From Opitutales bacterium (GTDB taxonomy: Bacteria; Verrucomicrobiota; Verrucomicrobiia; Opitutales; Seribacteraceae), in NCBI GenBank assembly GCA_028101545.1, contig JAOHKZ010000017.1, positions 1 to 46,042 of the forward strand: 46,042 nucleotides of DNA. Direction: 5' to 3'. The notes under the pieces are model-generated. The model saw nothing but the letters and a program-made list of their open reading frames with translations. It did not search any database and was not told the DNA's origin. This document shows, one piece after another, positions 2,741 through 44,111 of the stretch (position 1 is the stretch's first letter; each line of letters begins with the position of its first letter). The translations under genes and the position numbers were made by a program.

Positions 2741-2810
2741 AAGGAAAGGGTTTCATGGTATCGAACCATGTGAGGCACATGTCAGAGGAAGGCATGTGCC
2801 TTTTTCTTTT
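2741..2810 (+). ncRNA. Candidate small structured RNA (two tandem hairpins)
   Basis: There is no reading frame here, but two good hairpins sit in a row: CATGGT (2754-2759) with ACCATG (2765-2770) around a 5-base loop, then a 9-bp terminator stem ending in a T run at 2810. The promoter-like TTGGCA near 2712 could drive a transcript of about 70 nt. The nearest plus-strand gene stops at 2500, so a long 3' UTR is the main alternative. No match to a known RNA family was recognised. Confidence 0.35.
2773..2810 (+). terminator. Strong intrinsic terminator
   Basis: AGGCACATG (2773-2781) pairs perfectly with CATGTGCCT (2793-2801) around an 11-base loop, followed by TTTTCTTTT. The orientation is plus only; on the minus strand no T run follows the stem. 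It abuts the stop codon of the converging gene at 2809. Confidence 0.8.
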
Positions 2811-3243
2811 AATATCTGGGTTCTCCAATATTCTCCCAAAAATCTTTAATTCTAACGCCTCCGTTTTGGTCCATTGGTAAAACATCACATATTTTCAAAT
2901 GTTCAGGTCCTATGGTAAATCTTACGACTTCGCCGGAATTATCTTTTTTTCTTGGCAGACCGTCTCTGCCTTTGATTGCAATACATTCTATAAGGTCTTT
3001 TCCGTTATAACCTTTTTCATTCGACTCAGTGTATAAACCATCTGGATGCACAAAACTTATTATTTTACCATACCTCACCAACCCATGCCTCGAATGTCTA
3101 ATAATATCTCCAATTTGAAATGTCTTTTTTTTAAAGTATTTTAGTTCATTCAATCTTTTACATCTACTTTCTGCTAAGCGAAAAAACTTTAATTCTAAGT
3201 TGCTTTTTCTTAGTGGCGATAAATCATGGGCGTTCAGTTGCAT
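2809..3243 (-). CDS. Hypothetical protein, contiguous frame (probable C-terminal part of a frameshifted gene)
   Basis: A 144-residue frame starting at an ATG (MQLNAHDLSPL). I do not recognise the family. Residues 40-75 (FQIGDIIRHS, GKIISFV, DGLYTE) look like a small beta-rich domain with an IGD-x-I start and a G-KII-FV strand. The frame stays open and protein-like for a further 38 codons upstream, with no ATG, GTG or TTG among them, and that extension carries a similar LEIGDRII...RIGEIIFV unit. This suggests the true product is longer (see 3244-3371). Expression from 3243 alone remains possible, although no clear Shine-Dalgarno is visible. Confidence 0.55.
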   Translation of the reverse strand: MQLNAHDLSPLRKSNLELKFFRLAESRCKRLNELKYFKKKTFQIGDIIRHSRHGLVRYGKIISFVHPDGLYTESNEKGYNGKDLIECIAIKGRDGLPRKKDNSGEVVRFTIGPEHLKICDVLPMDQNGGVRIKDFWENIGEPRY

Positions 3244-3371
3244 AAGTTCGAATTTTCTACTTCTTCCCTCCTGAACAAAAATAATTTCTCCTATTCTTTT
3301 TTTTCTGCCAGTAGAAATCTGTTCAATTATACGATCGCCAATTTCTAATACTTTTTGTTTTTTTTACTCAT
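3244..3371 (-). other. Upstream, frame-shifted N-terminal segment of the 2809-3243 gene
   Basis: An ATG at 3371 opens ATG AGT AAA AAA AAC and would stop after MSKKNKKY. The heptamer A-AAA-AAC (3363-3357) has the X-XXY-YYZ phasing of a -1 ribosomal slippery site. Slipping back one base at 3357 enters a frame that reads QKVLEIGDRIIEQISTG and on through RIGEIIFV straight into the 144-residue protein. Adding one A to the A8 run (transcriptional slippage or a sequencing deletion) gives the same result. The joined product would be about 187 residues with two related IGD-type units. Confidence 0.5.
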
Positions 3372-3515
3372 CTATTTGATCTATAAAGGGTTTTCAGTAA
3401 ATACATAAATAAACTAACACTGATTCTTGGGATGTGCAAAAATAATTATGTTTTATAAGACTCCCTTTCTTTTAATTATTTTATAAAACCATTTTGGATT
3501 ATTAGAATGGGGGAG

Positions 3516-36497: not shown

Positions 36498-37982
36498 ATG
36501 ACGAATAATGCATATCAGGTAATTGCGAGAAGATGGCGTCCAAAACAGTTTTCAGAACTTGTTGGACAGGATCATGTCGTGCAGACTTTGGGTAATGCCA
36601 TAAAAATGGGCCGAATTGCTCATGCTTATCTTTTTGTTGGTCCGCGAGGCACGGGCAAGACAACTTCCGCTCGCTTATTTGCAAAGTCTATAAATTGGGA
36701 AGATGGTCCATCTTTACAAGTTCCCGAAGATTCCGATATCGGGAATGCTATTATGGAAGGTAGGTGCTTGGATGTTATTGAGATTGATGGAGCGTCCAAT
36801 AATTCGGTTGATCAGGTGCGCGATCTACGGGACGAATGTCAATATGCACCCGCTCAGTGCAGGTACAAAATCTATGTGATTGATGAGGTTCATATGCTCA
36901 GCCAACAAGCATTTAACGCTTTGCTTAAAACTTTGGAGGAACCCCCCGCGCATGTTAAATTTGTATTTGCCACCACTGAGTCCCACAAGGTTCTCCCAAC
37001 TATAGTTTCCAGGTGTCAGCGTTTTGAGTTCAGGTCTATTCCTGTCCCCTTAATTGTTGAAAAGTTAAAAGAAATCTGTATGGCTGAATCTATTGAGGTC
37101 GAAACGGAGGCAATCGAAGCTGTTGCTAGGATGGCAATGGGTGGAATGCGTGATGCGCAAAGTATTTTGGATCAGATGATTTCTTTTTGTGGAAAAACAA
37201 TTTCACAAAATGATGTTCTTGAAGTATATGGGTTGGCTTCCAAAGGAAGAATATCTGAGTTAGCTGGTTTTATAAATACTGCCGATTATAATTCTATAAT
37301 TGATTACACGGATTCTTTTTCTGCTGAGGGGATAGATTTTTACCGTGCTTTGCTAGATCTATCAGATACATTTAGGCAATTATTGCTTGATGTCTTGCGC
37401 AACAAGGAATCAACTTCAACTTATTCTCCTGAACAGTGCGTTCGAATTCTCGATGCACTGCGACAAGGAGAGGATTTAGTAAGAATGGGACTTTCCGAGA
37501 AGACAAATTTCGAGGTAACTTTGTTTCGTGCTGTTGAAGCAGGTCGAAATCGTTCAATTGACCAAGTAATTCGTAAGATTTCTGGAATGATACCAAACGA
37601 TTTAAAAAAAAAAGTTGAATTAAATAAAACACCAGTTGCACCAATCGAGAATATTCAGAATTCGAGCGAGGAAAAATTTACCGAAATAGAATCTTCTGGG
37701 ACTAACTCCAGCGATAATTTGATTTTGGAAGAACCTGAATCAGTTTTACCAAATAATATTAATGAATTCGAAAATATTTCATCACCTGAGGTTGAAATTG
37801 AGTCCAAGGTAATAAAAAATAAGTCCGAGGGTAAAAACGAAGAACCCAGGCAAGTTTTAGATCGAAAAAAAATTGAGACAAAAATTGCTGAGTTACCAAA
37901 TGGAATTCGGGGAATATTGGAAGAAAAATTTCAAGCTGATTTTGTATCTATAGAGAAGATTGATAAGGAAAAATTAATTTGA
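36498..37982 (+). CDS. dnaX: DNA polymerase III subunits gamma and tau
   Basis: The clamp-loader ATPase and replisome organiser, 494 residues. The AAA+ core has Walker A GPRGTGKT (48-55), Walker B/DEVH (129-132), SRC in [10 protein letters not shown] and the GGMRDAQS sensor 2 motif near 214. The zinc module normally between Walker A and DVIEID, with four cysteines, is missing: residues 64-90 hold only C90. A 10-A run at residues 369-372 (37604-37613) gives a shifted product that stops at once, so a gamma form of about 373 residues is expected beside the 494-residue tau. The tau-specific tail is acidic, Ser/Asn-rich and short. Start chosen by AAAGGAA at Shine-Dalgarno distance. Confidence 0.95.
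37602..37618 (+). promoter_or_regulatory. dnaX slippery A10 run with immediate stops in both shifted frames
   Basis: In frame the run reads TTA AAA AAA AAA GTT. A -1 shift reads AGT TGA (stop at 37616-37618), and a +1 shift reads TTG AAT TAA. Thermus dnaX uses an A9 run for transcriptional slippage and E. coli uses A-AAA-AAG for ribosomal frameshifting to make gamma; the placement after domain III is equivalent here. Confidence 0.6.
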
Positions 37983-40650: not shown

Positions 40651-43053
40651 TCAATAGTCTCTTCCTGAGGTTATTGAATGAATAGCCTCAACTTCTTGTT
40701 CAAGGGGTTCACTTTTAGATTCCATTTCCTGAAGAAGCCTTTCGTAAAGTGCATTAATTTCTTCCGGAAGAGGCTGTGGCTCACTGTTTTTATTTTCTTG
40801 TGGACCCTCAGGAGGGACTGGCTGGGATTGGTTCTGTGGATTTGAGGAATTCTGATCTTGCTGGCTATTGTCCTGAATTCCAAAATCGAGGTTTTCAGAT
40901 TTGGATTCAAAATCAGTCCATGCTAAATAGGCCTTCTTTTCCTCTATTGGAAAAGTGATGTTTGCATCCGGGTTTTGCGGTTGGATGCATACAGAGTATT
41001 GTCCTGGCGGAACGGGTTGTATAAAAGATCCATCTTCTGCAGGCTCAAAAGAAGTTTCATTTTGATCCAATTGAAAGTTACCGTTTTGATCTAGGTATAA
41101 TTTTACAGATGCAAATCCATTATCTTCGGAATCCCTGAAACCATTTCCGTTTTCATCTTTCCAAATTTGACCTTTTAGAATGGGAGCCGAGCGGTAAGGC
41201 ATCCCGATAACTTTTTCTCCCGGATTATTTAAGTTTAGGAAGTAATTTTTAACAAGTGCGGGGTTTTCAGGGGGGGGCGGCGGTGGGAGCATGGGTAAAA
41301 GGAATGAATTTTTTGACTGGTTAGATTCCGTGAGTTTTGTTCCCAGTCGAATCGATGTTGGATACTGGTCGGATATCCATTCAAATGAAAAAATACCATG
41401 CTCATCACTTTGAATAATGGGTTCAGTTGTTTTGTTATGTTCGCCATTTTCGTCTTTGTCCCAATATACATAACCCTGTAGATTGGGTTCAGTTTTTTGC
41501 GGTTTCCCGTCACCATTTATATCACGCCAGATTTTTCCTGTAATTTTACAAATCAGAGCGTTGATTCTCTCTTGAATTTGTTTATTTAAGGATTCTAAAT
41601 TTTGTTTAGCTTTTTCATTTCCATCTATTCGTAATGAAGATTCGTAATGAATTATTGATTGTACCCAAGCTTTTCTAGCCTCGGCTATATTTCTTTGATC
41701 CAAAAATTGATTTGCCCTGAGATAATATATATTACCCAATCCATTTAAGGCTTTTGCCTGAATAATAGGGTCGTCTAAGTTGGCATCTAGTGAGATCTGA
41801 AAAGATTCCTCGGCATCTTGTAAATTACCAGCCTGTAAATCAGCTAATCCCGCGTTTAAGAATAATCGCGGATCCGTTGGATCTCCGGCAGATATGCTAG
41901 CATTAATTTCTGCTTTAAAAAATTCAGCTGCTTTTTCGGGGTTTCCTTTTTCTAAAGCATCCTCTGCTCTTTTGACATTATCCTGTTTGATGCATCCTGA
42001 AAAGAAAAGCAGAAGAATAATGGCGAAAGCATTTCCACGAGTTGAAAAGGCTTTCGATATTTTTGAGGTAAGCATTTCAAGGCATAAAAAAAGAAATCCG
42101 ATAAATACAAATAATTTATATCGATCGATTGGTAATTCAGTAGATAGCTGTTCACGCTTTTTTTGTTGGCCAATTGTTTGAAGGATTCCTAAAACTTTGG
42201 CTAAACCTTCTCCTGTTGGACCAAGTGAAAAGTATTTTCCTTTGCTTGCATCTGCGATAGCACGCAGTGAGTTCTCATCGAGCTTTGTTATGACAGTTTG
42301 ACCTTGAGGATCCCGAAGAAAGTTTCTGGCTGACTGCCCTAGAGGGTCCATCGGAATTCTTGCCCCCCCTTTTGCTCCAATGCCTATGGTATAAATCCTT
42401 ACACCTTCTTTGGCTGCTTCTTTTGCTTGTTTTAATCCTTTTCCTTCAAGATCCTCCCCGTCGGAAAGGAGTATTAGAAAACGGTCAGTATCGTCTTTTG
42501 AGAATGAATGGATAGCCTCTTCGATTGGTCGAGAAAGGTCGGTTCCTGGTCTTTTAATGATTCCAAACTCTAAATCGTTTAATGTTTTAGAAAAAGCTTG
42601 GTGGTCTAAGGTCAAAGGACATTGAAGGAATGCAGAGCCGGAGAAAGCAATCAATCCGAGTCGGTCACCTTCGACACGGTCGAGCAGATTGTTAATACTT
42701 AATTTTACTCGTTCTAAACGGTTGGGACGAACATCTCTCGCCAGCATACTTTTTGATACATCCAATGCTATTAAAATATCTATTCCCGAGGGTTGAGATT
42801 TCCTTTTTTCAGAGCCCCATTGTGGACGTGCCAGGCCAAGAAACAAAAAAAAGATTCCTGTTCCCAGAAGGCTAAATTTGAGGATCTGTTGTTTTGATGA
42901 CCAGTTTGGAGTAAGTTTTGGTAATAGTTGATGTGATGTAAGTAAATAAAGCCTTTTTCGTTTGATTTTTTGACTCCAATAAAAAATTACCACCAACCCA
43001 ATGAGAGAAAATAAGCCAATAAGCAAAATATTTTGGTCGGCAAAAAAGTTCAT
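40651..43053 (-). CDS. batB: BatB-BatC fusion with SdrD/Cna-B-like domains
   Basis: An 800-residue fusion. Residues 1-330 are BatB: two N-terminal membrane helices, a von Willebrand A domain with MIDAS D98-VSKS (LIALDVSKSML) and a closing helix (312-330). Residues 341-353 (NAFAIILLLFFSGC) look like the signal and lipobox of a separate BatC lipoprotein, followed by TPRs at about 360-495. Two SdrD/Cna-B-like units follow, each with a calcium-type D-N-G-D start: GKIWRDINGDGKPQKTE (506-522) and GQIWKDENGNGFRDSED (628-644). A Pro-rich linker lies at about 587-597 and a Gln/Asn/Pro-rich tail ends in a Glu-rich helix. BatB and BatC are normally separate genes. Met327 (42075) could be an internal start for the BatC part. 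Confidence 0.85.
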   Translation of the reverse strand: MNFFADQNILLIGLFSLIGLVVIFYWSQKIKRKRLYLLTSHQLLPKLTPNWSSKQQILKFSLLGTGIFFLFLGLARPQWGSEKRKSQPSGIDILIALDVSKSMLARDVRPNRLERVKLSINNLLDRVEGDRLGLIAFSGSAFLQCPLTLDHQAFSKTLNDLEFGIIKRPGTDLSRPIEEAIHSFSKDDTDRFLILLSDGEDLEGKGLKQAKEAAKEGVRIYTIGIGAKGGARIPMDPLGQSARNFLRDPQGQTVITKLDENSLRAIADASKGKYFSLGPTGEGLAKVLGILQTIGQQKKREQLSTELPIDRYKLFVFIGFLFLCLEMLTSKISKAFSTRGNAFAIILLLFFSGCIKQDNVKRAEDALEKGNPEKAAEFFKAEINASISAGDPTDPRLFLNAGLADLQAGNLQDAEESFQISLDANLDDPIIQAKALNGLGNIYYLRANQFLDQRNIAEARKAWVQSIIHYESSLRIDGNEKAKQNLESLNKQIQERINALICKITGKIWRDINGDGKPQKTEPNLQGYVYWDKDENGEHNKTTEPIIQSDEHGIFSFEWISDQYPTSIRLGTKLTESNQSKNSFLLPMLPPPPPPENPALVKNYFLNLNNPGEKVIGMPYRSAPILKGQIWKDENGNGFRDSEDNGFASVKLYLDQNGNFQLDQNETSFEPAEDGSFIQPVPPGQYSVCIQPQNPDANITFPIEEKKAYLAWTDFESKSENLDFGIQDNSQQDQNSSNPQNQSQPVPPEGPQENKNSEPQPLPEEINALYERLLQEMESKSEPLEQEVEAIHSITSGRDY

Positions 43054-44111
43054 GGAATTCGAAGGAAGATTGTCTTAGCTAGAATGAATTCCAGGAAAAC
43101 AAGCATTAATGCCAGAGCAAGTGGCCATTGGAAAAGTTCTTCAAAAAACATGTTCACATTTAATTCAACTTCGGTTTTTTCAAGCCTGTCGATTTCATCG
43201 TAAATAGATGCAAGTTCTCTTTTATTTCTAGCCTCGTAGAATTGGGCATTGCTTGTCGATGAGATCTTTTGAAGAATTTCTTTGTCAACGGGATAGTCAG
43301 CTACTTGAACAACGGGATTTCCATTTGCATACCTCATAAGATCTCTCGATCTTTGATCAAATAAATAAGTTCTTGTCCTTGTGGCTGTACCAACCGCAAT
43401 AGTGTAAATCTTAATATTATCATTTTTTGCTCCTTCGGCATAGATTAAGGGACTATGGGGTGGGGGAGGTTCGTCCTTTCCATCCGTAAGAAGGATGAGG
43501 ATTTTTGATTTAGATTCTAATGTTCTCAGGCGATTTATACCTTCTGCTAACGCAGAACCAATGTTTGTCCCTGTCTGGTGGGTAAGACCAACTCGTAATC
43601 GATCAATATTTTTTTGTAAGTGCTCCTTATCCAATGTAAGAGCGCTTACTAAGTAAGGATCTACCGAAAAAGCAACGAGTCCGATTCGGTCGTGTTTTCT
43701 CTTTGAGACGAAATCTTTGATTACCCCTTTAACCACATCTAATCGAGTAATTTCAGCCTTTTGGTCATCGCTCATATCAAGTGCAAGCATGGAGGCAGAT
43801 AAATCGATAGCTAATACAATATCTACTCCGCTAGAAACTACGGAGCTAGTACTTCTGTCAAATTGTGGTCTTGCCAGAGTAAGGGTTAAAAAGACCAATG
43901 ATAAAAATCTAAATGCCTTTTGAATTACTTGGGAATAATCATTCCTATTAGTAAGGCTCTTTTTAATTCTCGAAAGAGTGGGGAAAAGGAGTGTGGAATC
44001 CTTCATGTCTCCCCTTTTCTGAATCCATAAAACAATTGGAATAATTAGAAGTAAAAAAAGCCATAATGGTTCCGCTAAACGAATCTTTTGCCATTCTTGC
44101 AAATATTCCAT
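43050..44111 (-). CDS. batA: BatA-like von Willebrand A membrane protein
   Basis: A 353-residue protein with two N-terminal membrane helices (LWLFLLLIIPIVLWI and FRFLSLVFLTLTLA), a von Willebrand A domain with MIDAS motif in VLAIDLSASMLALDMSD (DxSxS) and ILLTDGKDEPPPP, and a C-terminal helix (about 325-345). This is the BatA layout. VWA domains bind protein partners through a metal; here the partners are presumably the other Bat proteins and MoxR. The stop overlaps the start of the batB/C gene by 4 bases. The gene lies 6 bases after the DUF4381-like gene. Confidence 0.88.
   Translation of the reverse strand: MEYLQEWQKIRLAEPLWLFLLLIIPIVLWIQKRGDMKDSTLLFPTLSRIKKSLTNRNDYSQVIQKAFRFLSLVFLTLTLARPQFDRSTSSVVSSGVDIVLAIDLSASMLALDMSDDQKAEITRLDVVKGVIKDFVSKRKHDRIGLVAFSVDPYLVSALTLDKEHLQKNIDRLRVGLTHQTGTNIGSALAEGINRLRTLESKSKILILLTDGKDEPPPPHSPLIYAEGAKNDNIKIYTIAVGTATRTRTYLFDQRSRDLMRYANGNPVVQVADYPVDKEILQKISSTSNAQFYEARNKRELASIYDEIDRLEKTEVELNVNMFFEELFQWPLALALMLVFLEFILAKTIFLRIP

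Follow-up and report, generated by a model that had tools for sequence, protein, structure and literature searches.

A one-base frame break in a lysine-coding A run of a lineage-restricted gene from an Opitutales bacterium

The stretch of DNA analysed here, referred to as the window, comprises 46,042 nucleotides of contig JAOHKZ010000017.1 from an Opitutales bacterium. Close to one end it contains a small gene on the minus strand whose start codon and main reading frame are out of register (Table 1). The frame of the ATG terminates after 8 codons at a TAG (3347-3345). The long frame, which spans positions 2809-3363, is preceded by a TAA (3366-3364) and contains no ATG, GTG or TTG until position 3243, where an internal ATG opens a clean frame of 144 residues. 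The heptamer A-AAA-AAC overlaps the A run in the X-XXY-YYZ phase relative to the ATG frame, and a -1 change of frame at this motif connects the ATG frame with the long frame. The preliminary description of the locus had reported the 38 upstream codons without a start as well as the -1 junction at the heptamer, and both hold on the minus strand; the distance from the ATG to the heptamer, given there as six bases, is five by count. The six neighbouring genes are open both in the window and in a related contig, JABGWU010000113.1 (L120), where they occur in identical order.

Table 1 Coordinates of the features discussed in the text
Feature	Position	Strand	Remark
Whole gene from start codon to stop codon, with the one-base frame break in the A run	2809..3371	-	Start codon placed by comparison with L003
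144-residue frame from the internal ATG	2809..3243	-	Remaining protein, including the second unit
38 upstream codons, which make up the greater part of the first predicted β-barrel unit	3244..3357	-	Homologue of the N-terminal region in the relatives
A8 run	3358..3365	-	Overlapped by the heptamer A-AAA-AAC at 3363-3357; C at 3357
ATG start codon	3369..3371	-	Same position as in the closest relative L003 (stretch of L120)
Promoter-like TTGCAC-17-TAGTTT	3411..3439	-	39 bases before the ATG
dnaX	36498-37982	+	A10 run at 37604-37613, codon 368

Homologues of the gene are present in 26 of the 27 genomes of the genus, in a search that included this genome. The genus copies form two paralogous groups; this genome has one copy of each, and its other copy is intact. 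Loci from searches of the genus, the order and named genomes were each read back to the upstream stop. With copies that share their last 300 bases counted once, this yielded 64 distinct loci, two of which (the first copy at L141, and L176) are cut by contig ends, leaving 62 assessable loci from both paralogous groups. In 61 of the 62, the N-terminal unit and the start codon lie in one open frame, the sole exception being the window copy. For 55 of the continuous loci this was scored by a pattern, and the six that the pattern missed (L133, L135, L141, L168, L171 and L172) were scored by eye. The break is therefore unique to the window copy among the loci examined, and the relatives are continuous. 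The earlier proposal that both halves belong to one protein with two similar units is right.

The closest relative, L003, is a stretch of L120 and is 88% identical over the 144 residues. It has the same ATG start and an unbroken open reading frame of 187 amino acids, and it lacks the A8 run, the heptamer and any frame change. The 38 upstream codons differ from those of L003 by 15 bases, 12 of which are at codon position 3 (dN 0.058, dS 0.60), a pattern that mirrors the history of both species and not the branch of the window copy alone. Polarised with four outgroups, two of the 15 differences fall on the window branch, three on the L003 branch and ten are assigned to neither. The 144-codon part shows 89 base differences, 66 of them at position 3. 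We take the 38 upstream codons to be a genuine part of the gene, because they are homologous to the N-terminal unit of the 61 other loci and because their differences from L003 are biased towards third positions. Given that most of the differences between the two upstream units are at third positions, the frame change looks recent or unreal.

These comparisons also bear on the reading that the real gene is the 144-residue frame starting at the internal ATG, with fortuitous or non-coding codons upstream. The clean frame opened by that ATG would fit, but the homology and third-position bias of the upstream unit speak against a chance frame, which we reject. With an internal start, the first predicted barrel would moreover lose its initial strands, and a promoter-like element precedes the upstream ATG by 39 bases. 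We reject this reading as scarcely credible.

The A run lies in a region that encodes a lysine-rich N-terminal tail. Among the 57 other loci with a readable tail, the longest A run of the tail ranges from 3 to 9, and all are in frame. Runs of 8 or 9 occur in 12 of the 57, every one of them in frame, and the six nearest orthologues (L003-L008) have longest runs of 5 to 9. The preliminary description had looked to relatives with nine A residues and a plain continuous frame as a sign of a sequencing error. This sign is seen in part: two such relatives exist, L006 and L008, which carry nine A at the matching place and are 74-75% identical to the window copy, but the nearest relative, L003, is not among them. 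Lysine codon usage is the same in the tail (162 AAA to 93 AAG) as in the rest of the protein (752 to 461; P 0.67), so the A run is a by-product of the lysine tail.

Slippery strings are likewise common in this region. Five other loci (L008, L010, L013, L168 and L188), all with continuous frames, contain AAAAAAC in the tail region; its phase to the long frame is that of the window copy only in L013, and in L008 it is located just before the ATG. AAAAAAG is found in the slippery phase of the coding frame in sixteen loci with no change of frame. Such motifs in many in-frame loci thus come with the lysine-rich tail, and the heptamer carries little weight of its own, because any A8-C in the same phase contains it.

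The leading proposal for the locus was that programmed -1 ribosomal frameshifting at A-AAA-AAC, at codons 3-5, controls synthesis of the protein. The window gene resembles programmed -1 systems such as E. coli dnaX and IS elements in its in-phase X-XXY-YYZ heptamer, where a shift unites both parts. It differs from them in that the heptamer is not conserved: all 61 other assessable loci are single-frame and need no shift, and the nearest relative has no slippery run. It also differs in having no detected stimulator. A 101-nt segment beginning with the last base of the heptamer gave no fold signal in a search that covered structures other than pseudoknots (z -0.58, with 58 of 200 shuffles folding as well), and the 30 nt before the heptamer contain no Shine-Dalgarno-like motif (GAGG, GGAG, AGGA, GGNGG or AGGKG). 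According to the sections of the two sources concerned, A_AAA_AAC has a low efficiency in E. coli (PMC4066793) and is much less shift-prone there than A_AAA_AAG (PMC5009743). The former source also regards it as very likely that some genes make use of low-efficiency heptamers, and it describes a proven IS cluster with A_AAA_AAC for which no stimulator has been established (PMC4066793); a missing stimulator alone therefore does not exclude programming. With the relatives single-frame, L003 devoid of the run and neither a fold nor a Shine-Dalgarno-like element found, we reject a programmed shift, which we consider very improbable.

The window contains a second A run in a coding sequence, in dnaX (Table 1). 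We collected 21 copies of dnaX (L198-L217 and L224) from 20 of the 27 genus genomes, this one included; the other genomes gave no long match. An A9-A11 run is present at one place in all 21 copies (19 with A10, one with A9 and one with A11), and the flanks vary. Both other frames run into a stop within 12 codons in 20 of the 21 copies. L216 (genome G024) departs from this, as its A11 puts the short product (374 aa) in the template frame and the remaining protein out of frame. The A10 run is a candidate slippage site for a short gamma product by analogy with Thermus dnaX, whose slippage run is an A9 and to which the run of the genus is close, as far as the relevant parts of the sources describe it (PMC1088944; PMC5009743). 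A kept slippage run would look like the dnaX A9-A11, and the run in the 2809-3371 gene shows none of these properties.

The dnaX run raises a further reading of the window gene, in which the A8 is real and the gene is leaky or switchable, some full-length product arising through RNA polymerase slippage or through run lengths that change reversibly between cells. The kept A10 suggests slip-prone transcription in the genus. In E. coli and Buchnera, single-base transcript insertions are described as more frequent in longer A/T runs (PMC5574713), and a human gene with an eight-A run is described as obtaining about a tenth of full-length product via transcript slippage (PMC1088944). Against this, the run of the window gene varies in length and sequence among relatives, always in frame; the out-of-frame run is seen in one copy only, with no sign of selection for the run; and the pertinent sections of PMC5574713 report no case of a transcription error restoring a frame. 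Transcriptional slippage is marked by an A/T run of about 9 bases or longer that is kept at a fixed position; the family has no such run, with A8 here and 3 to 9 elsewhere. As described in part in the literature, Thermus dnaX (A9; PMC1088944) and Citrobacter tssM (A11; PMC4256274) share with the window gene an A run, an early stop in one frame and the main product in another; the window run differs in being shorter, in its location at codons 3-5 and in not being conserved as a run. We consider a leaky or switchable gene unlikely. That the A8 is genuine and fixed in the species, with RNA polymerase or ribosome slippage or reversible length change setting the amount of the basic tandem-barrel protein, is distinctly unlikely. 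Low-level slippage may nevertheless give some full-length protein alongside the break.

Very probably, the gene is a normal single-frame gene in which homopolymer slippage, as a recent mutation or a technical error, has put the A run one base off, and not one with a selected frameshift signal. It would be an ordinary member of a lineage-restricted family with a lysine-rich N-terminal tail and two small β-barrel units, in which the length of the A run that encodes the lysine tail offsets the start codon by one base from the remaining frame. Either replication slippage would be responsible, resulting in a fresh pseudogene or a polymorphism, or the run would have been altered in error during amplification, sequencing or assembly. 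The preliminary description had rightly listed a fresh pseudogene or an assembly error as the alternative. The break amounts to a one-base change in the length of the A run. Between recent mutation and technical error we judge the odds about equal.

Two scans for frameshifts bear on the state of the assembly. In the first, a 446-kb sample of this genome (20 stretches of 20 kb plus the window) was compared with stretches of three genomes of the same genus. It returned four candidates in this genome and four, three and two in the controls G021, G011 and G009, respectively, counts to which breaks within the first few codons, where the scan is blind, do not contribute. The second, which took in named loci as well and applied a stricter limit on identity (126 kb compared), returned six weak candidates, each backed by one reference ORF. 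Three of them fall within the window, next to good genes or antisense to them, and the others are in L035, L046 and L048; no A/T run of 8 or more is present at the printed junctions of the six. Runs of 8 or more in 137 conserved open spans (128.6 kb) number 30 (20 A, 9 T and 1 C), a count that takes in only open frames by design, and two of these sit in the downstream part of the gene itself. The assembly is not visibly rich in homopolymer frameshift errors. The C8 run, located in an open conserved span of ~2.4 kb (window 40653-43074, minus strand), is an unusual tract at about 40% G+C. The dnaX copy of L216, whose frame ends at its A11, indicates that runs off by one occur in these genomes, whether real or technical.

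Frameshifted genes of Blochmannia and Buchnera carry one-base frame breaks inside an A run of an otherwise conserved gene. The window gene is alike in this respect. It differs in that the break is found in one copy only, with no sign that slippage rescues expression. The relevant part of PMC5009743 names frameshifted genes of both genera with indels in A/T runs.

The family itself has no name in the databases searched: the window protein gave no match at E up to 1 in Pfam, NCBIfam or PHROGs, and one match, at E 1.1, among PDB sequences. The paralogue of this genome gave three below-cut-off matches only (E 0.031 to 0.22) in the Pfam, NCBIfam and PHROGs search. Matches were obtained in 11 of 132 genomes sampled across the order, all from one taxonomic family; 101 genomes without a match are unlisted, which precludes a count of absences within that family. 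Of 141 genomes sampled across the class, one matches, and it is this genome. A titled collection, which may omit records of this genome, contributes 58 loci, all without a species name, from records titled Opitutia, Opitutae, Opitutales, Verrucomicrobia or Verrucomicrobiota bacterium and one "uncultured bacterium". In the samples searched, the gene thus appears confined to one taxonomic family of uncultured Verrucomicrobiota. In a second genus of that family, two members lie side by side in two genomes (G130:C28:54751-56002 and G109:C51:2-1180), and the titled loci L133, L135 and L141 contain two copies each.

The AF2 model of the protein (mean pLDDT 84, pTM 0.56) contains two sets of short strands. 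The best Foldseek match in the PDB is weak: the tandem Agenet domain 7yta, with E 4.5e-4, TM 0.28/0.35, rmsd 16 and 9% identity. Other Agenet and Tudor domains come next in the ranking, and KapB (1y71) and human DSIF KOW domains (5ohq) appear lower down. The likeness to tandem Agenet/Tudor and KOW-type SH3-like barrels (7yta, 5zwz; 5ohq; 1y71) lies in the predicted tandem small β-barrels, whereas the structural match is weak and the window protein has no family match at the sequence level. The two units are probably SH3/Tudor-like small β-barrels, a prediction we offer as a lead only. Together with the basic tail, two SH3-like barrels would suggest an adaptor that binds nucleic acid or protein.

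Seven of 19 orthologues, the window copy included, have a promoter-like TTGC-17-TAGTNT at 25-60 bases upstream of the start, against an average of 0.18 and at most 2 in mononucleotide shuffles; the pattern was shaped on the same sequences, which flatters the comparison, and in one member of the set, L013, the upstream sequence extends for only 38 bases. Several orthologues share a wider TTAGTGTATTTATG-like stretch at a similar distance upstream.

The analysis removes a false lead, in that any A8-C in a lysine-rich tail can produce what looks like a perfect slippery heptamer, and comparison with relatives settles candidates of this kind. As by-products, it brings to light an unnamed, lineage-restricted family of putative tandem-barrel proteins and a strictly kept A9-A11 run in the dnaX of the same genus.
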